The notes beneath the pieces were generated by a model, which saw only the letters and a program-made list of their open reading frames with translations, searched no databases and was not told where the DNA came from. A stretch of 64,000 bases of DNA from assembly GCA_030427595.1 (NCBI GenBank), contig JAUIBX010000002.1, forward strand, positions 1 to 64,000, in the 5' to 3' direction. Positions within the stretch are counted from its first letter, which is position 1; each line of letters starts with the position of its first letter. Both the position numbers and the translations under genes were made by a program. This document shows, piece by piece, positions 31,501 through 42,243 of this stretch. Source of the DNA: Bacteriovoracia bacterium. Lineage in GTDB: Bacteria; Bdellovibrionota; Bacteriovoracia; Bacteriovoracales; Bacteriovoracaceae.

Positions 31501-31514
31501 TCTAAGGAGTTCAT

Positions 31515-32489
31515 GTGAACGATTGGGATAGAGCTAAGGATGACATACGCAAGGGAGCCCGCTTTGTAGGACCGATTATTGCCATTCTTTTTATTATTGG
31601 GGCGGTGAGATCTAGTTTTTATACCGTGGACCCTGACGAAGAAGCCGTTATCATAAGGTTCGGTAAGTACGTGGGAACCTCTCAACCAGGACTTCACTTT
31701 AAGCTTCCTCTTGGAATCGACAGTGTCACTTTGGTTAAAACAAAGCGTGTTTTACAGCAAGAGTTTGGCTTTAGGACACGCAATACCTCAGGAAGACGAA
31801 CAAGTTACGATCAAAAGAATTTCGATACTGAGTCCCTTATGCTTACTGGGGATCTTAATGTCGCGGATGTTGAGTGGGTTGTTCAATATCAAATCTCAGA
31901 TCCTTTTAAGTACCTTTTTCAAACCTCTGCACCTGAAAGAAATATTCGCGATGTCTCAGAATCTATCATGAGAAGAGTTGTGGGGGATCGCGATGTTACC
32001 GAAGTTTTAACTACGGGTAGGGTGGAGATTGCAGGTGATGCAAAAGTTCTCATGCAAGAGGTTCTTGATAAGTATGATATGGGTGTAAAGGTCGTCACTG
32101 TAAAGCTTCAAGATGTGAACCCTCCAAATGTAGTTAAAAAATCCTTCAATGAAGTGAACGCTGCTAAACAAGAACAAGAAAAGGTTATTAATCAGGCCGA
32201 GGAAGCTTATAACCGAGTTATTCCTGAAGCCCGTGGTAAAGCCGAAAAGCTCATTAGTGAAGCTGAAGGTTTTGCTAAAGCAAAAGTGAATCAAGCGGAA
32301 GGTGACGCCAAGAAGTTTGAAGCAATCCTTAAAGAGTACAAAAGAGCTCCAAGTATTACTCGTAAGAGAATCTATCTCGAAACTATGGAGAGTATTTTAA
32401 AAAGAGTAGAAGACATCACCGTTGTCGACCCTTCAGTAAAAGGGGTTTTACCCGTATTCAATGGTAAAGGAGTTGTCAGTGGGCAGTAA
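31515..32489 (+). CDS. hflK: HflK, band-7/SPFH protease modulator
   Basis: The product has 324 residues, starts at GTG with AAGGAG upstream and has one N-terminal membrane helix (about residues 16-33). The SPFH domain follows (VDPDEEAVIIRFGKYV...PGLHFKLPLGID), then a charged coiled region rich in Lys/Glu/Ala. HflK with HflC forms a membrane cage around FtsH in other bacteria. The long glycine-rich cytoplasmic tail of E. coli HflK is missing. Its cotranscription with the carboxylase genes is unusual. Confidence 0.94.
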   Translation: MNDWDRAKDDIRKGARFVGPIIAILFIIGAVRSSFYTVDPDEEAVIIRFGKYVGTSQPGLHFKLPLGIDSVTLVKTKRVLQQEFGFRTRNTSGRRTSYDQKNFDTESLMLTGDLNVADVEWVVQYQISDPFKYLFQTSAPERNIRDVSESIMRRVVGDRDVTEVLTTGRVEIAGDAKVLMQEVLDKYDMGVKVVTVKLQDVNPPNVVKKSFNEVNAAKQEQEKVINQAEEAYNRVIPEARGKAEKLISEAEGFAKAKVNQAEGDAKKFEAILKEYKRAPSITRKRIYLETMESILKRVEDITVVDPSVKGVLPVFNGKGVVSGQ

Positions 32490-33456
32490 ATCAGCAATAA
32501 CCCTCATATTTTTTGTGGCCATTCTCATAGTTTTGAAAGGAACTTTCTTTGAGTTAAATGAAGGACGCCAGGCCATCATCACTCAATTTGGTAAGCCTAT
32601 TGGTGATCCCATTACTGAAGCTGGCCTTCATATTAAAACTCCCTTTATTCAAGAAGTACGCTTTGTCGACAAACGAATTCTCAGTTGGGATGGCTTTCCC
32701 AATCAAATCCCTACAAAGGATAAGAAGTACATTAAGGTCGATACAACTGCTCGATGGAGAGTTGTTGATGCGCTTAAATTTATCCAAACAGTAAGAAATG
32801 AGACTGGGGCAAGGGCCCGGTTGGATGCGATTCTCGATTCAGCAACTCGCGATGTCATTTCTAATCATAACCTTGTTGAAGCCGTAAGAAACTCCAACAG
32901 CATTATTGAGAAGATTGAGGAGAAAAAGGCATTAATTGAGAAGCTCAAAAAAGAAGGTAAGCCAGTCATTGAAGAAGGTGTTACCGGTGAAATTGAAAAA
33001 ATTAAAGTTGGACGAGAAAACCTAAGTGAAATGATTGTGAAGTCTGCTGAAAAGGAGCTTAAAGCTTTCGGTATTGCCCTTATTGATGTTCAGTTAAGAC
33101 GAATTAGTTATGAGCGATCAGTTGAGGCCAAGGTTTATGAAAGGATGACCTCTGAAAGACAAAGAATTGCCCAGAAAATTCGCTCAATAGGTCAGGGAGA
33201 AAAGGCCAAGATTGAGGGGCGTCTTCAGAGAGATTTGAGGGAAATTAAGTCACAGGCCTACAAGCAAGCTCAGATCATTCGAGGGAGTGGCGAGGCCAAA
33301 GCCCTTAAGATTTATGCTCAGTCACTTTCTAAAGACCCTAAGTTTTACTCTTTCCTCAAGACAATGGAAGTCTATAAAGACTCCATTCAAGAGCGTACAA
33401 AGTTTCTTATGAGTTCAGATGGTGAGCTCTTCAAGTTCTTTAAGAAGGCAGACTAG
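32479..33456 (+). CDS. hflC: HflC, band-7/SPFH protease modulator
   Basis: The product has about 325 residues. The GTG at 32479 is chosen because AAGGAG (32467-32472) is six bases upstream; an ATG at 32461 would lie before that SD. It overlaps the end of hflK by 11 bases, implying coupling. It has an N-terminal helix (ITLIFFVAILIVLKGTFF), the SPFH motif EGRQAIITQFGKPIGDP and a lysine/glutamate-rich insert near residues 145-185, as in other HflC proteins. Its stop overlaps the convergent speA stop in the palindrome CTAG. Confidence 0.94.
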   Translation: MGSKSAITLIFFVAILIVLKGTFFELNEGRQAIITQFGKPIGDPITEAGLHIKTPFIQEVRFVDKRILSWDGFPNQIPTKDKKYIKVDTTARWRVVDALKFIQTVRNETGARARLDAILDSATRDVISNHNLVEAVRNSNSIIEKIEEKKALIEKLKKEGKPVIEEGVTGEIEKIKVGRENLSEMIVKSAEKELKAFGIALIDVQLRRISYERSVEAKVYERMTSERQRIAQKIRSIGQGEKAKIEGRLQRDLREIKSQAYKQAQIIRGSGEAKALKIYAQSLSKDPKFYSFLKTMEVYKDSIQERTKFLMSSDGELFKFFKKAD

Positions 33457-35357
33457 TTTTTCAAATAGGTATAACTCGTGAGGCAGTCTTCATAGAAGTC
33501 GACCCACTTTACTCCAAGTCTGGGGGGAATTTTTCCCTCAGACACAATCTTAGAAACATTCTTCTTCATCTTTTGGGCCATATACTCAGGGTTATACTGC
33601 ATTGTTGAAAGAACACCTGATGCGGTATTGCCTTTGATGATTTCCTCTATATAGAAGCCTTGAGGGTCATCATTATCTCCGTAGACATGCACTTCATGGA
33701 GTCTCCCAAAGAGGTTATGCATATCCCCCATAACGTCTTGGTAAGCGCCTGTGAGAAAGAGGCCAACCAAGTATTCCTCGTCCTCTTTGAGATGGTGAAT
33801 GGCCATTGTCGGAGTGATCCCATCTCTATTGATGAACTTGCCTATGATTCCGTCACTATCACAAGTGATATCAGCAATGGAACAATTGGCATCAGGCTTT
33901 TCATTAAGTCGACTTATAGGCACAACTGGAAGAAGTTGATCAATGGCCCAATGGTCAGCAGCTGATTGGAACACTGAAAAGTTACAAAGGTACTGAGGGG
34001 CAAGTTTATTATCAAGCTCAGAGAGGGATTCGGGTACAAACTCCAGCATTTCAGAGAAGTTCATAATACCTTCCATGATTTGCCAGTAAAGAGTTTCAAT
34101 AACGGCCCTGTCTTTGAGGCTAATAACTCCTAGGTTAAAGGCACTCAAGGTCTGCTCTTTAATCTGTATCGCCTCATTATAAATTTCTTGAAAGTTATCT
34201 TCACCAATCACCCAGCTGTGCATTTCGCGCATATTCTTGATAAGCATATGCTCATTATCATTAACTTTGGTGTCGAAGTTGGGCTGGGTAACGCTGATCT
34301 TGTCAACGACATTCGTGATGACTAGAGAATGGTGTGCCGTAATTGCTCTACCACTTTCTGTGACGATATTGGGATGGGGGACATTTTCAATATCACAGAT
34401 TTGCTTAAGGCCATAGACAATATCAGCAACATATTCATTTAAAGTATAGTTTACGGATGAATCGGAAGACGACCGGCTTCCATCGTAGTCAATTCCCAGT
34501 CCGCCACCGGCGTCAAAGTATTCAAGTTGACAGCCTAGCTTGTGAAGCTGAGTAAAGACCCGTGCACCTTCTGTGATGGCCTCTTTAAAAGTTCTAATAT
34601 CTGAAATTTGAGATCCTATGTGAAAATGGAAAAGTTTAATACAGTCTTTGAGACCATATTCTTCCATTAGTTCCACAGCTCTAATCATTTCAGAAGTTGA
34701 AAGGCCAAACTTAGCACGATCTCCGGTAGACTTGGCCCATCTCCCTCTACTCTTAAGGGACATTTTTCCTCTAAGACCGATGAGTGGTTTAACTTGGTAC
34801 TCTTGAGAAAGTTTAAGGAGTTTTGGAAGTTCGGAAAACTTTTCTATGACGATGATGATTTTTCGCCCAAGCTGTCTGCCTAAAAGCGCAAGAGAGAGGT
34901 AATCTTCATCTTTATAGCCATTTAAAACAGTAATCGCCTCAGGGTTGGTGTTGTAGGCTAAAACAGAGAGAAGCTCCGGCTTTGAGCCTGCTTCGAGACC
35001 GAAGTTGAACTCTTCGCCTGCATCCACAATTTCTTCAACAACTTCTCTCATTTGGTTAACTTTAACGGGGTAGACGCCACAGTATTTACCGTTGTAGTTG
35101 GCCTCTTTAATAACCTCACTAAAGCTTTGATTAATTTTTCTGACTTGAGATCTAAGAATATCGTGGAAGCGTATAACTGCGGGAAGACTAACACCTTGAG
35201 AGCGCATCTCTTCTACGACTTCTCTTATATTAATACTTTTGGCTTCAGGAGATGGTTTAACAACTAAGTCGCCCTCTGGTGAAATATCAAAGTAACCTTC
35301 ACCCCAAGTACTAATATTATATGTTTTTTCAGCTTCTTCTCTTGTCCATTCGTTCAT
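33453..35357 (-). CDS. speA: Biosynthetic arginine decarboxylase
   Basis: The product has 634 residues, the usual size of the PLP-dependent SpeA class (alanine-racemase fold). It converts arginine to agmatine. Recognisable parts are VYPVKVNQMREVVEEI (PLP-lysine region), FHIGSQISDIRTF, FDAGGGLGIDYDGS and TESGRAITAHHS. It starts nine bases after the agmatinase stop, with AAGGA overlapping that stop, so speB-speA is an operon making putrescine. It converges on hflC with a four-base shared stop and no terminator. Confidence 0.96.
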   Translation of the reverse strand: MNEWTREEAEKTYNISTWGEGYFDISPEGDLVVKPSPEAKSINIREVVEEMRSQGVSLPAVIRFHDILRSQVRKINQSFSEVIKEANYNGKYCGVYPVKVNQMREVVEEIVDAGEEFNFGLEAGSKPELLSVLAYNTNPEAITVLNGYKDEDYLSLALLGRQLGRKIIIVIEKFSELPKLLKLSQEYQVKPLIGLRGKMSLKSRGRWAKSTGDRAKFGLSTSEMIRAVELMEEYGLKDCIKLFHFHIGSQISDIRTFKEAITEGARVFTQLHKLGCQLEYFDAGGGLGIDYDGSRSSSDSSVNYTLNEYVADIVYGLKQICDIENVPHPNIVTESGRAITAHHSLVITNVVDKISVTQPNFDTKVNDNEHMLIKNMREMHSWVIGEDNFQEIYNEAIQIKEQTLSAFNLGVISLKDRAVIETLYWQIMEGIMNFSEMLEFVPESLSELDNKLAPQYLCNFSVFQSAADHWAIDQLLPVVPISRLNEKPDANCSIADITCDSDGIIGKFINRDGITPTMAIHHLKEDEEYLVGLFLTGAYQDVMGDMHNLFGRLHEVHVYGDNDDPQGFYIEEIIKGNTASGVLSTMQYNPEYMAQKMKKNVSKIVSEGKIPPRLGVKWVDFYEDCLTSYTYLKN

Positions 35358-35366
35358 GATGGGTCC

Positions 35367-36269
35367 TTAGGTGTTGAGAGCAAGGATGGTTTCTCGTGTC
35401 ACTTTGGTGGCAAAAACATTACTATTTCCTGAGGCATCCAATGGCGGGGATAATTCAACAATATCCGCTCCTACAAAATTTTTGTGGCGAAGGATTTTCA
35501 TTAGCTTGATAAAGGAATGAAAGGTTTCACCACCTGCTTCAGGTGTTCCTGTTCCAGGCATATAGGCCGGGTCAAAATAGTCCAAGTCTAAAGTCAGGTA
35601 GATGGGACGATCTTTTGGTATATTTTCCACAGACTCAATAAAGTCATTAAGGCTGGTGCGTATTGTTTTATTTTCTCGCATCCATACATACTCATCTTTT
35701 GTACCTGAGCGAATACCATATTGAATGAGGTCATGTTTATCAGTCATATGGTCTAGGGCCCTTCTGATAATTGAGGCATGAGAATAGTGGTAACCCTCAT
35801 AACCATCCCTTAAATCAGCATGGGCATCGAGGTGTAAAAGAACTAGGTCCTCAAAGTTTTCAAGGTATCTTCTTATGGGAGCATAGGAAATGGAGTGTTC
35901 ACCACCCAAGGTCACAATTTTAATATTATCTCTTTTGAGGTCTACATTCGCAGTCCAGTTAAGAAAAGTATCTGTTGCTTTTTGCCAATTCGCCTCTTGA
36001 TTCTCACTATCTCCAACAGGAAGATTTCCTAAATCGTAGAGGTTTTTAAGATCTTCTAGGTCACAATCAAGGTAGGGGCTATAAGATTCGATACCAGTGC
36101 TGTCTTTTCTAATGGCATCTGGTCCCAGTTTTGTGCCCTTTCTAAAACAGGCCGTACCATCAAAACCAAAACCCACAAGATAGGTCCCGGGACCTGTGAT
36201 TTTTGGTGAAAAGTGAAAAAAATCGTAAGGGCCACAATCTGGCTTTATGGCATCGTCATGCAAATCCAT
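35367..36269 (-). CDS. speB: Agmatinase / ureohydrolase
   Basis: The product has about 300 residues and hydrolyses agmatine to putrescine and urea. Binuclear Mn ligands are visible in GGEHS, DAHADLRD, the HAS motif and DLDYFDP. I prefer the ATG at 36269, which has AGGA upstream; an ATG at 36290 lacks an SD and would add seven residues. It precedes speA, which supports agmatine as substrate, though ureohydrolases of other specificity look similar. A promoter lies at 36309-36336. Confidence 0.92.
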   Translation of the reverse strand: MDLHDDAIKPDCGPYDFFHFSPKITGPGTYLVGFGFDGTACFRKGTKLGPDAIRKDSTGIESYSPYLDCDLEDLKNLYDLGNLPVGDSENQEANWQKATDTFLNWTANVDLKRDNIKIVTLGGEHSISYAPIRRYLENFEDLVLLHLDAHADLRDGYEGYHYSHASIIRRALDHMTDKHDLIQYGIRSGTKDEYVWMRENKTIRTSLNDFIESVENIPKDRPIYLTLDLDYFDPAYMPGTGTPEAGGETFHSFIKLMKILRHKNFVGADIVELSPPLDASGNSNVFATKVTRETILALNT

Positions 36270-36308
36270 GGCTTTTTTCCTGCTTGGCATATAAAGAATA
36301 TTTTCAAC

Positions 36309-36458: not shown

Positions 36459-38393
36459 GTGTTGAAAAAGACACATCTTTCATTGGCCATAACACTGCTC
36501 TCTTTGCCTCTTTTTGCGCAGGAGAATAATTTCTTTGATTTCTTCAATGAAGAGATGGCCCCTAAAATTGAGGTCAATATCAAGACCCTCAATTATGAGA
36601 GAAAGGAGGACCGGGATCAGTCCCAGGGTCATTTTTCATTCGATAAGTTTCAAATCCTTTCTGAAAAAACAAATTTAAAGCTCCATAACGAGTCTCAATT
36701 CTACGATGCTGATATTTATCGGCGAGGAAAGATGATTGGATTTCATGGTCCAGCAGCTTCGTTTGTCTACCAGTTAAGGGATCAGGACTTTAAATATGTT
36801 GATTCCTTTCAATGGATGACCATGAATAATGTCTATTACTTTATGGATCGAAACGAAATTATCCTTCAGGGTAAGAACTTTGCCATGAGAGAACCTCAGA
36901 CAATGCTCCTTACAAATGATTTTAAACTGAATTGTGATAGACACCCCGATTATCTTTTAAATGACGGGGATGGCTTTATTGCTGGCTGTTTTAATTATGG
37001 CTTTGCTAGTGCACTGGATAATCAAGGAATCTCTTCAGATTTTAGATTTTTTGATGAAAGTGGAAAGAAGCTTATTGATTTAAAAGGATATTTTAAAAGA
37101 ATAGATTTTCAGCAAGAAGCGATTGATGCTGACATTACAAGTTTGACTTCTAACTTTAGTGATGAAGTTCTTCTTAATGCTACAGATATAAAGCTAGCGT
37201 GTGAGAAACCACGTGATGTTGTTTCAGTCACCCCAGAAAAACTGGTTGTTCCTTGTTTAGACAATATTAGTATAGAAGGCAACTTCTTGGGGGCGGAGTT
37301 TTTAGAGGATAATGACGAATTAACCATTCTCAATCCTAGAATAACACATGAAGACAAAACTCTAACGATTGATCATAGTGATATTAGGTATAAGGCGAAA
37401 GAGTCTGAGTTTAAGCTAAGTAATTCAATCCTAAGATGTAAGACACCTGAAAAAGGTAATGTGATTGAGGTTGAGACTTTTTTAAGTGGTTGCTTAAATG
37501 ACTCTGAACTCTTTAAAAAAGAAGAAGATGTTTCGTTTGAATTCAAAGTCACAGAGACAGAACCTAAACCCTTTGAGCTAATCGTTGGGGGAGATGTTCA
37601 GTCCTTTCAGGTAAATTCTGAAAGGTTAAATATGACTTCTGATAAATTGAAGTTGGAAATAGATAAGAGTATTTTTATCGATTTCAATCAGATCAATCTA
37701 GATTGTCAGAAAGAAGAAGGTTTGAGCCAGTTTGATGCCAAGGCCATGCTTACTCACTGTAAGAAGGATATGGTGATTGGTCTTGATACCTTTTCACTTA
37801 AAGATTTTATTGATCCAAGAAATCCTGTACTTGTAAAGACTCATCCTTCAGTTGTTAAAAACCGTGATGAGCTTCTTCACATTGAGCTTCCAGAGTTGAA
37901 GTTGGTTGATCAAGAAGACTTAACGCTCATGGAGAATGTGAAGATTCTTTGTAAAACCGAAAATAACGAAGATGTTTTCATCCCAAATGAAATTATCGGA
38001 GCCTGCGTAAAAAGAGGTCAAATTAATATAGATAAGATCTTTACAGATGACTCAAACCTTTCCGTTTCTACTTTAACAAACCCTCAAACAAATATTGATA
38101 ATGTTCAGGTAGAAAAGAAAAAAGCTAAGATCTTTGATGTCAACCTGATCACTCAAGATGGGAAGATATATGGAAAGGTGATGATACGCTTTCTTGGTAT
38201 GAAGTCGGAAGTTACTTTTTCAGGACCGATTTCATGGGATATAGAAAAAGAGGTTTTGACGATAAAAGTGGAAAACTCACGGCTGCCTTTGGGCATAAAA
38301 TCAGAAAATATTTTTATGTTCTTTCTTAAGAAAATGCTTGTGGCCGAGATGATCACTTATGAAAAGGATAAGACCATAAAGATTTCTCTTTAA
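36459..38393 (+). CDS. Exported protein with five C-x17-C repeats, function unknown
   Basis: The product has 644 residues. It starts at GTG (or TTG at 36462) after AGGGG, with a Sec signal peptide of about 20 residues (SLAITLLSLPLFA). I do not recognise the family. Five cysteine pairs have exactly 17 residues between them: C159/C177, C248/C266, C327/C345, C416/C434 and C498/C516. Each first Cys follows a beta-like hydrophobic strand (KLNC, KLAC, LRC, LDC, ILC). Pair-to-pair distances are 89, 79, 89 and 82. These are the only regularly spaced cysteines, so five disulfide-closed beta modules are likely. The C-terminal 70 residues (MIRFLGMKSEVTFSGPISW...) differ. It converges on meaB. Confidence 0.8.
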   Translation: MLKKTHLSLAITLLSLPLFAQENNFFDFFNEEMAPKIEVNIKTLNYERKEDRDQSQGHFSFDKFQILSEKTNLKLHNESQFYDADIYRRGKMIGFHGPAASFVYQLRDQDFKYVDSFQWMTMNNVYYFMDRNEIILQGKNFAMREPQTMLLTNDFKLNCDRHPDYLLNDGDGFIAGCFNYGFASALDNQGISSDFRFFDESGKKLIDLKGYFKRIDFQQEAIDADITSLTSNFSDEVLLNATDIKLACEKPRDVVSVTPEKLVVPCLDNISIEGNFLGAEFLEDNDELTILNPRITHEDKTLTIDHSDIRYKAKESEFKLSNSILRCKTPEKGNVIEVETFLSGCLNDSELFKKEEDVSFEFKVTETEPKPFELIVGGDVQSFQVNSERLNMTSDKLKLEIDKSIFIDFNQINLDCQKEEGLSQFDAKAMLTHCKKDMVIGLDTFSLKDFIDPRNPVLVKTHPSVVKNRDELLHIELPELKLVDQEDLTLMENVKILCKTENNEDVFIPNEIIGACVKRGQINIDKIFTDDSNLSVSTLTNPQTNIDNVQVEKKKAKIFDVNLITQDGKIYGKVMIRFLGMKSEVTFSGPISWDIEKEVLTIKVENSRLPLGIKSENIFMFFLKKMLVAEMITYEKDKTIKISL

Positions 38394-38396
38394 GGC

Positions 38397-39374
38397 TTAG
38401 AGCTTTTCTTTAATAAGTTTAATCATCTCACTAGAGGCTTCTCTTACAGTCGCCTTACCATCTTGAACATTTTTACGAATTTTCTCAAACTGAGAATTGA
38501 GAGAACTATTTTCTTTTATTTCTTGAAATAGCCTCTCTTGAAATAGGCTATCAAGCCAAGATTGAGACTGCTCTTTCCTATTAGATTCAAAATGACCGCT
38601 CTTTTTTGAATCCTCATCAAATGAGCTTAGAGCCTCTTTAATTTCTTCAAAGCCTGTTTTTTCTAAAGAGCTACAATTTAAGACCATTGGGCTCCAGAAC
38701 CTTTCCTTCTTAATAATATGAAGAGCGTTTTGATACGTCGTCTTGGCATTTTCGGCGAGGATTTTAGTATCACCATCGGCCTTATTGATAATGAGAAGAT
38801 CAGCGAGTTCAATAATACCCTTCTTAATACCTTGAAGTTCATCACCTGTGTTGGGGACCATAAGCACCATAAAGAGGTCAACCATCGATGATACTTGGTA
38901 TTCCGACTGACCTACGCCGACTGTTTCAATTAAAACAATATCGTAACCAGCTGCTTCACAAAGGAAAATAGACTCTCTTGTTTTGGCGGTAACACCACCA
39001 AGGCTGCCTGTTGTTGGTGATGGCCTAATAAAGGCATCTTTATTTTGGGAGAGTTCTTCCATGCGGGTTTTGTCCCCAAGAATACTACCTCCGGAAATAG
39101 GCGAGCTGGGATCTACAGCGAGGACAGCAACTTTATGACCGGCCTTTATAAGTTGGAGGCCTAGTACTTCAATAAAACTAGATTTGCCTACGCCGGGAAT
39201 ACCAGAAATACCGATCCTCAGGCTATTTCCGCTTTTTGGGATAATGTCTTTAAGGAGCTTTTCGGCCATTTCTCTGTCTGTTGGTCGATGAGACTCCACC
39301 AGAGTGATGGCCTTAGCAAGTGCTCTGCGGTCACCTTTTAGAAGGTTGCTTTTTATTTCTTTCCAGTCTTTCAC
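38397..39374 (-). CDS. meaB: Methylmalonyl-CoA mutase-associated GTPase MeaB/ArgK
   Basis: The product has 325 residues. It protects and reloads methylmalonyl-CoA mutase with adenosylcobalamin. The G1 P-loop [32 protein letters not shown], and [12 protein letters not shown] match MeaB/ArgK (G3 family); NKADGD is the base-recognition motif. It starts at GTG, overlapping the mutase stop as GTGA, so the two are translated together. An earlier name, arginine/ornithine transport ATPase, is now regarded as wrong. Confidence 0.95.
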
Positions 39375-41512
39375 GAATTGCCTTGGCCTTCATTGATGGC
39401 CTTCAATACTGCCTTGGCCGAAACGGGGATGGGGGTTCCTGGGCCAAAGATACCTTTTACGCCGGCCTTCTCAAGGAATTCATAGTCTTTCTTAGGGATG
39501 ACTCCACCAACAACCACAATAATGTCTTGAGCATTTAATTTTTTTAACTCCTCAATAAGGGCTGGAACTAATGTTTTATGGCCAGCAGCCTGAGAGCTTA
39601 CGCCGACAACGTGGACATCATTATCAACAGCTTGTCTTGCCACTTCCTCTGGTGTGGAGAAAAGTGGAGCAAGGTCAATATCAAAACCAACGTCCGCAAA
39701 GGCAGTGGCAATAACTTTAGCGCCTCTGTCATGTCCATCTTGTCCCATTTTAGCAACGAGCATGCGAGGACGACGGCCATGTTGTTTTTCAAAACTTTCA
39801 ATATCAGATTTGATGTTCATCCAACCCTCATCCTTTTCAAATGCACTACCGTATACACCACTAACTGTTCTCGTATTATCTTTGAAACGACCCCAGTGCT
39901 TTTCGAGCATATAAGTAATTTCACCTACAGTTGCTCTGGCACGAGCTGCTTTAACCGCAAGGTCAAGAGCGTTGCCTTCTCCATTAACTGCATAGGCTTC
40001 TAGGGCATCAAGGGCCTCTTTTACTTTATCATTATCTCTTGAACTTCGAATATGATCTAGGGCCTTTATTTGACCTTCCCTAACTTTGACGTTGTCAATT
40101 TCAAGAACCTCAACAGGGTCATCATTGGTGTTGGGGTATTTGTTGACGCCAACGATGACATCCTCGCCACGGTCAATTCGAGCCTGTTTAGCTGCTGCAG
40201 ACTTTTCAATATTGAGCTTGGGTACGCCCTTTTCAATGGCCTTTGCCATTCCGCCAAGAGAGTCGACTTCCTTGATGATCTCGCGGGCCTTGTCAGCGAT
40301 ATCTTTAGTAAGGCTTTCCATCATGTAGCTTCCACCCCATGGGTCTACAACTCCTGTGATACCTGTTTCTTCTTGAAGAATAATTTGAGTATTTCGAGCA
40401 ATTCTTGCAGAAAACTCTGTCGGTAGGGCGATGGCCTCATCAAAACTATTAGTGTGAAGTGATTGGGTGCCACCAAATACAGCGGCCATGGCCTCTATGG
40501 TTGTTCTGACAATATTATTATAGGGGTCTTGTTCTGTGAGACTCCAACCTGAAGTTTGGCAGTGGGTTCTAAGCATAGAAGACTTGGGTTTTTCTGGATT
40601 AAACTCACTCACTATTTCATGCCAAAGCAGTCTTGCTGCTCTTAGTTTGGCGACTTCCATGTAGAAGTTCATACCAATGCCAAAGAAGAAAGAGAGTCTT
40701 GGGGCAAATGAGTCAATCTTAAGACCAGATTCAATCGCCGTCTTAATATACTCCTTACCATCGGCCAATGTATAAGCGAGCTCAAGTGCAGCATCAGCTC
40801 CTGCCTCTTGCATGTGGTAGCCGGAGATAGAGATACTATTAAACTTGGGCATATTTTCTGATGTATAGGCAAAAATATCTGAGATGATTTTCATAGAAGG
40901 AGCCGGTGGATAAATATAAGTATTTCTCACCATGAACTCTTTAAGAATATCGTTTTGAATTGTACCTGATAGCTTTTCTGGGCCTACCCCTTGTTCCTCG
41001 GCCGCGACAATATAGTTGGCAAGGATAGGGAGAACGGCACCGTTCATTGTCATCGAAACAGAAACTTTGTCTAAAGGGATACCATCAAAGAGTACCTTCA
41101 TATCTTCTACGCTATCGATGGCCACACCGGCCTTACCAACATCGCCTACGACACGAGGATGATCTGAGTCGTAGCCACGGTGGGTGGCCAGATCAAAAGC
41201 GACGGATACGCCTTGACCTCCGGCCGCAAGAGCTTTGCGATAGAAGGCATTTGACTCTTCAGCAGTTGAAAAGCCTGCATATTGGCGAATGGTCCAAGGC
41301 CGGCCAGTGTACATGGTTGCTCTTGGGCCACGAATAAAGGGGGCCATTCCAGGGGTTGTATCCACCAAGTCGTTATTGGAAGTATCCGCTTTTGTGTAGA
41401 GGGGTTTAATTTTAATACCCTCTGGACTAAGCTTTGCCAGCGAGTCGGAAGATTTACCCTTCGTTTCTTTTTCTACAAGCTTTTCCCACTGATCTTTTCG
41501 AAAAATCGTCAT
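39371..41512 (-). CDS. scpA: Methylmalonyl-CoA mutase, large subunit type
   Basis: The product has 713 residues. The N-terminal TIM barrel holds the CoA- and substrate-binding motif [25 protein letters not shown] and [16 protein letters not shown]. The C-terminal cobalamin domain carries [21 protein letters not shown] with the base-off histidine. Residues in the substrate loop match the methylmalonyl, not isobutyryl or ethylmalonyl, type as far as can be judged. The length and the absence of a small-subunit gene suggest a homodimer like E. coli Sbm. It converts methylmalonyl-CoA to succinyl-CoA and pairs logically with the carboxylase at 27980-31500. No epimerase is seen. Confidence 0.95.
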
Positions 41513-41655: not shown

Positions 41656-41691
41656 AGAAGAGTGAAACTGTTGAAACCTGGAGGTCATTTG

Positions 41692-42243
41692 GTGTCAGGC
41701 GGAGACCGCGATTCTAAAGATTTTGTTCTAGAGTCATCCCTACAGTACTTCTTTTATTCCCAACTACAAGAGTTCAATGAGAAGTCTCAAGAACCTCTTC
41801 CTAACGAGGCGATTTACTACTCAAGCATGGTGATGGACCGCTTTGGTGAATCTGAAAACTACTTCGAAGTTTCAGAGGGAAAAGTGAAGGACAAGGTTCT
41901 TGGTGTAAAACTTCTTCAAACGAGTCACATGCCAAGAGAAGAAAAGAAGAGAGTTTTAAAGGATATCGGAGATATGGCGCTTTTGATCTGTGGCTTTTTT
42001 TCCGATTCACTTAATAAGAAAATTTTGGATACTAAGTACTATCAAGAGCTTGGGCAACGAGCATACAGTCACCTTAATGCAGAAGTGCCATCAGCTTATG
42101 ATGTACCGGAATTTTTCCATCTTTTGTCTCTACGCTTCGATCAGCTCGCGACAGTTATGAGCTTAGTGTCTGAGAAGACCATTGGTCAGGCCGCTGATTT
42201 CGAATCACCTTATTTAATTATCACCAAAAAAATTGCTGGTTAA
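41692..42243 (+). CDS. Small soluble protein of unknown function
   Basis: The product has 183 residues and no signal peptide or membrane segment. It looks mainly helical. The start GTG at 41692 lies seven bases after GGAGG (41680-41684) and fits the promoter at 41628; the longer GTG at 41662 would coincide with the transcription start. I do not recognise the family. Conspicuous parts are QYFFYSQLQEFNEKS and EFFHLLSLRFDQLATVM. It is alone between divergent scpA and the convergent M16 gene, with whose stop it shares a TTAA. Confidence 0.7.
   Translation: MSGGDRDSKDFVLESSLQYFFYSQLQEFNEKSQEPLPNEAIYYSSMVMDRFGESENYFEVSEGKVKDKVLGVKLLQTSHMPREEKKRVLKDIGDMALLICGFFSDSLNKKILDTKYYQELGQRAYSHLNAEVPSAYDVPEFFHLLSLRFDQLATVMSLVSEKTIGQAADFESPYLIITKKIAG

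Follow-up and report, generated by a model that had tools for sequence, protein, structure and literature searches.

A candidate family of length-variable, disulfide-stapled periplasmic beta-repeat proteins in Bacteriovoracaceae

A gene encoding an exported five-module repeat protein was identified in the window, the 64,000-nucleotide stretch of Bacteriovoracia DNA analysed here. The gene is located between hflK-hflC and meaB-mcm, an arrangement that is found by synteny in several genera. The features of the locus and of the protein are as follows, with their basis in brackets.

31506..33456, plus strand: hflK and hflC (SPFH/Band 7), conserved upstream neighbours (Pfam, synteny)
36459..38393, plus strand: whole gene, exported five-module protein of 644 aa with a GTG start (translation; homologues)
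36459..36518, plus strand: signal peptide VLKKTHLSLAITLLSLPLFA, residues 1-20, without a lipobox cysteine (sequence)
36558..36812, plus strand: N-terminal cap, residues ~34-118, predicted to be beta-rich (AlphaFold secondary structure; alignment)
36813..36998, plus strand: module 1, residues 119-180, Cys159/Cys177 (Cys positions, AlphaFold, profile comparison)
36999..37265, plus strand: module 2, residues 181-269, Cys248/Cys266 (Cys positions, AlphaFold, profile comparison)
37266..37502, plus strand: module 3, residues 270-348, Cys327/Cys345 (Cys positions, profile comparison)
37503..37769, plus strand: module 4, residues 349-437, Cys416/Cys434 (Cys positions, AlphaFold, profile comparison)
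37770..38012, plus strand: module 5, residues 438-518, Cys498/Cys516 (Cys positions; profile match to one-module paralogues)
38013..38390, plus strand: C-terminal cap, residues 519-644 (AlphaFold secondary structure, profile match to one-module paralogues)
38397..41512, minus strand: meaB and methylmalonyl-CoA mutase, conserved downstream neighbours (synteny; identity recognised from sequence)

The signal peptide appears to be of the Sec type and is probably cleaved, and nearly all relatives have a hydrophobic N-terminus as well. Beyond this start, no further hydrophobic segment was found in the sequence of the window protein. The N-terminal cap can be aligned in 21 of 21 homologues and shows no profile similarity to the modules by hhalign. 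Module 5 is the module that the window protein has in common with one-module paralogues, with a profile E-value of 1.6e-16 over module 5 and the C-terminal cap. The C-terminal cap is predicted to contain beta strands followed by a hydrophobic helix (616-626) and two last strands. The junction between hflC and the repeat-protein gene contains speA and speB in the window (33453-36290; genus g1), a Sua5/YciO-like open reading frame in genus g11 and no gene in genus g8; this junction thus took different genes in different genera. The neighbouring genes are 70-95% identical within the genus, whereas full-length homologues of the repeat protein are 48-50% identical.

The ten cysteines of the protein form the five pairs listed above, all of them C-x17-C, and the steps from one first cysteine to the next are 89, 79, 89 and 82 residues. 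The codons of the first and last cysteines lie at 36933-36935 and 38004-38006, respectively, in agreement with a sequence-only reading of the DNA that had described five such pairs, 79-89 residues apart after a signal peptide, at 36933-38006. When the ten cysteines were placed at random in the window protein, at most three of the odd-numbered gaps were equal in 200,000 draws.

Outside the cysteines the modules diverge strongly, as that reading had also stated, and any two of them share 6-12 identities per 75 residues. Comparison of orthologue profiles by hhalign detected homology in all 10 module pairings, with E-values from 2.7e-11 to 9.5e-5, whereas reversed controls reached 0.007 at best, and with the cap comparisons included all E-values were 0.006 or worse. 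The profiles strongly support the view that the modules, each about 80-89 residues long, are tandem repeats of common origin. Module 2 is closest to module 4 (E 2.7e-11) and module 3 is closest to module 1 (E 5.9e-10). Together with the recurring spacings of 89, 79 and 89 residues, these best pairs suggest that the protein may have grown by duplication of a two-module unit of ~168 residues.

The protein had been called an orphan, a description that does not hold: relatives occur in most Bacteriovoracaceae, in a multi-copy family with conserved synteny. A single-sequence search gave matches in 21 of 144 related genomes, including the window's own, and a profile search found a member in 64 of 129 Bacteriovoracaceae genomes. 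With a profile of the short members, matches were obtained in 104 of 369 phylum genomes; 102 of these belong to the same 129 Bacteriovoracaceae genomes and 2 lie outside. The window's genome encodes at least four members, namely the window protein, a two-pair member (G000:C126), a one-pair member (G000:C181) and a short member (G000:C277). The plasmid and phage records searched contained no family match. The family is unnamed in the libraries used, yet most of the Bacteriovoracaceae genomes that were searched contain it, often as several copies.

The number of modules varies widely within the family. Among 97 distinct open reading frames, in which cysteine pairs were counted C-terminal to the signal peptide, members contain 1 to 6 pairs and each pair adds ~85 residues. 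Median lengths are 268, 349, 450, 638 and 694 residues for members with 1, 2, 3, 5 and 6 pairs, respectively. The four-pair class is a mixture of 570-residue proteins and g8 proteins, the latter being five-module proteins by length. For three members (L065, L066 and L073), additional cap or loop cysteines make the pair count uncertain. L065 and L066, which are long members, contain an additional short-spaced cysteine pair inside the cap near the C-terminus. In L073 (minus strand, 1097-2824), additional cysteines accompany the usual pairs and the total is even; these cysteines possibly form inter-module disulfides.

At the hflK-hflC...meaB-mcm locus, the orthologues contain five pairs in g1, four pairs plus one cysteine-less module in g8, and three pairs in g11 and g41, the g41 contig covering the meaB-mcm side alone. 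In a tree of the last module and cap, one-module members stand apart from those with several modules, and a single group (35 rows, support 94/97) contains 3-, 4- and 5-module proteins intermixed. The differing counts at one locus and the mixed tree group strongly support a change of module number in place at the orthologous locus, probably more than once. The family offers a natural series for studying the gain and loss of repeat units, with 1 to 6 modules overall and 3, 4 or 5 at a single locus. In one genome of the genus, the orthologue (L005, G006:C15) is split by a TGA codon in frame downstream of module 1, at about position 2023; it is a pseudogene or reflects an assembly error, and it was left out of the counts.

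Among 63 non-redundant relatives, the two cysteines of a pair differ by 18 positions in 46% of pairs, compared with ~1% at random. Other common differences are 17, 14, 19 and 21, and the whole range extends from 10 to 26. An interval of exactly 17 residues is therefore the value of the window lineage, and it is preferred rather than universal in the family. The cysteine count of the mature part is even in all 94 usable relatives, and in 63 of 63 after removal of relatives that are >50% identical. In three g8 orthologues (L007, L008 and L009), module 3 lacks both cysteines while its position and length are kept, and no module with one cysteine of the pair alone was seen among the collected members. 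The cysteines are thus gained and lost in pairs, as in a disulfide-closed repeat, which supports the earlier proposal of one disulfide per module. The genome also encodes DsbB. The even counts, the joint loss in g8 and DsbB make it very likely that the pairs are structural disulfides formed in the periplasm.

A beta repeat had also been proposed from the letters of the DNA, and the predicted structure supports it. The AlphaFold model of the five-module protein, built with 21 homologues, has a pLDDT of 85.7 and a pTM of 0.74. In this model each module consists of roughly five strands followed by a 10-residue helix that holds the second cysteine. The placement of the first cysteine at a strand end and of the second in a short helix 17 residues on is strongly supported for each module. 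The model of the one-module paralogue from the same genome, built with 29 sequences, has a pLDDT of 87.7 and a pTM of 0.80. In the average of 243 modules, the approach to the first cysteine has alternating hydrophobic residues, at -9 and -7 and then at -4, -2 and 0, with a conserved bulge, and two hydrophobic helix residues immediately precede the second cysteine. This pattern suggests that both the first cysteine and the helix lie on the hydrophobic side of the sheet. Strand alternation across the whole window protein was not above that of shuffled sequences (0.62 vs 0.55 +/- 0.08). Mean-field covariation over the 243 modules gave a huge coupling between the two cysteines together with hairpin-like couplings. 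The cysteine coupling is circular because the modules were picked for having the pair, and an ungapped, cysteine-anchored covariation test of strand pairing across the loop was null (0.37 vs a permuted mean of 0.48); hence no topology is claimed from covariation.

The window protein matched no Pfam or NCBIfam family at the curated cut-off and no PDB sequence. No known sequence family at cut-off covers the modules in these three libraries, so that the earlier failure to name a family is upheld. PDB sequence searches with family members, as single sequences and as profiles, returned nothing, and when single members and every member of two alignments were scanned against Pfam and NCBIfam, scattered chance matches were the sole result besides DUF4403. 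A description of the repeat family was not found in the literature. This family of probably disulfide-stapled modular beta repeats of Bacteriovoracaceae is well supported and, as far as the libraries and papers used show, undescribed.

In the TULIP fold, a curved antiparallel sheet wraps around a long helix, and a lipid tunnel is present. DUF4403 (PF14356), a predicted bacterial TULIP family of pseudo-dimeric proteins (PMC6791001), aligns with the C-terminal cap in one-module members, with a best E-value of 5.7e-5 and 22.4 bits against a cut-off of 28.3. A DUF4403 search of 358 phylum genomes gave 13 matches with E<=0.01 and none over the Pfam cut-off. Twelve of the 13 are one-module family members, assigned to the family by their coordinates in the short-member profile search; they cover profile positions 265-352, and eleven are from genus g25 and one from g41. 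No DUF4403 match was seen in members with more than one module. DUF4403 proteins and the repeat family are alike exported, beta-rich and found in diderm bacteria. However, their alignment with the one-module cap covers ~60-85 residues alone and stays below the curated cut-off, the repeat ladder is absent from DUF4403, and the two-domain TULIP by which DUF4403 is defined was not detected in the repeat family. This weak profile similarity gives the strongest clue to function, although it falls short of establishing membership.

In a fold search with the one-module model, the top PDB match was P47 of Clostridium botulinum, a TULIP protein (PDB 5wix), with an E-value of 0.02, a probability of 0.38 and a TM of 0.22; the likeness consists of this top rank and is not significant. 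The five-module model gave no meaningful match in PDB and BFVD (TM about 0.1). Beta propellers, LptD and ApoB from PDB (TM about 0.1), and phage tail fibres and MORN repeats from BFVD, were taken as generic beta matches to that model. The E. coli TULIP lipoprotein YceB/DUF1439 is likewise small, periplasmic and beta-rich, but it is a lipoprotein, and the single E. coli YceB sequence gave no profile match.

The preferred reading is a new, length-variable family of probably disulfide-stapled periplasmic beta-repeat proteins; the lipid-binding function tentatively assigned to them from the TULIP similarity is given a probability of about 0.4. Each cysteine pair, as a periplasmic disulfide, most probably pins a helix-containing loop to the sheet, and the stapled helix would pack on the hydrophobic sheet face. 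The protein would then form a long beta sheet, hydrophobic on its inner face and ending in a TULIP-like C-terminal cap. In the periplasm, such a sheet could bind or shield lipid or some other hydrophobic ligand, and the number of modules would set its length or capacity. Lipid binding is the best-supported function and is suggested by the weak TULIP signal; lipids may be carried or shielded between the two cell membranes. The neighbouring genes (hflKC, propionyl-CoA pathway) give no pointer to lipid transport. A bolder version, to which we give a small chance, is a periplasmic lipid carrier or conduit class of a new kind in these predators, with stapled beta modules that lengthen TULIP-like caps and whose copy number, changed in place, sets the length, linking single-cargo TULIPs to long beta-groove bridges. 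If the TULIP link is true, the family would relate compact lipid carriers to long lipid bridges of the beta-groove type and would be an additional envelope component restricted to a lineage of predators; Bacteriovoracales is an order of predatory bacteria.

A stalk or adhesin at the surface or for contact with prey, with its reach tuned by repeat number, is an unlikely alternative that would account for the varying repeat number at one locus, for the fast divergence of the protein relative to its neighbours and for the almost complete confinement of the family to the predator lineage. However, no lipobox, anchor, autotransporter or other surface signal is present, and the single-module paralogues would be poor stalks.

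An RBG-type bridge-like lipid conduit would form a stack of modules spanning the periplasm. The RBG unit consists of five strands and a helix or loop crossing the groove (PMC7613979), and the RBG proteins (VPS13 and ATG2, and the bacterial AsmA, TamB and YhdP) likewise contain a variable number of tandem modules of ~five strands plus a helical element. The model has a comparable strand count and one helix per module, and 5-6 modules with caps would amount to about 38 predicted strands, enough by estimate for most of the periplasm. Unlike the RBG proteins, the repeat family has two cysteines per module and is exported without a membrane anchor, its presumed covalently closed loop precedes the helix, which stands at the loop end, and this order is the reverse of that in RBG. 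A disulfide joining both loop ends is hard to square with a loop across an open groove. The window protein also lacks an N-terminal inner-membrane anchor and a Chorein-N-like start (sequence, Pfam). Single E. coli AsmA, TamB and YhdP sequences gave hhalign probabilities of 0.1-1.1%, which is no match, and no VPS13, ATG2, TamB or YhdP appeared among the 50 PDB fold matches listed for the five-module model. The window's genome contains a separate TamB homologue and gave no match to AsmA. An RBG conduit is accordingly considered quite improbable.

A periplasmic scaffold, chaperone or regulator that partners the HflK-HflC (SPFH) membrane assembly is given a similarly low probability. The neighbour is conserved, and in g8 the gene adjoins hflC on the same strand with a gap of about 100 bp, but the window gene is separated from hflC by speA and speB and stands on its own strand, and the paralogues elsewhere in the genome show that this neighbourhood is no family trait. 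Metal-binding or redox cysteine pairs, suggested by the two conserved cysteines in each module, are very improbable, as the alignments show neither a CxxC motif nor conserved His/Asp/Cys ligands to accompany the pairs, the protein is exported in a DsbB-positive genome, and the cysteine spacing is widely variable among relatives.

Several minor observations concern the neighbourhood and the relatives. A 193-aa open reading frame without a Pfam match (window 41662-42243) is conserved in four genera, where it separates the methylmalonyl-CoA mutase gene from that of an M16 protease (37-74% identity). In three genomes of the genus, a two-module paralogue (L061, L063 and L064) lies directly 3' of an amino-acid-type ABC transporter ATPase gene. 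The two members outside Bacteriovoracaceae (G236:C92:4076-4897 and G327:C105:1604-2437) have one-module length and come from two further families in the phylum, which may point to transfer or to an earlier origin.
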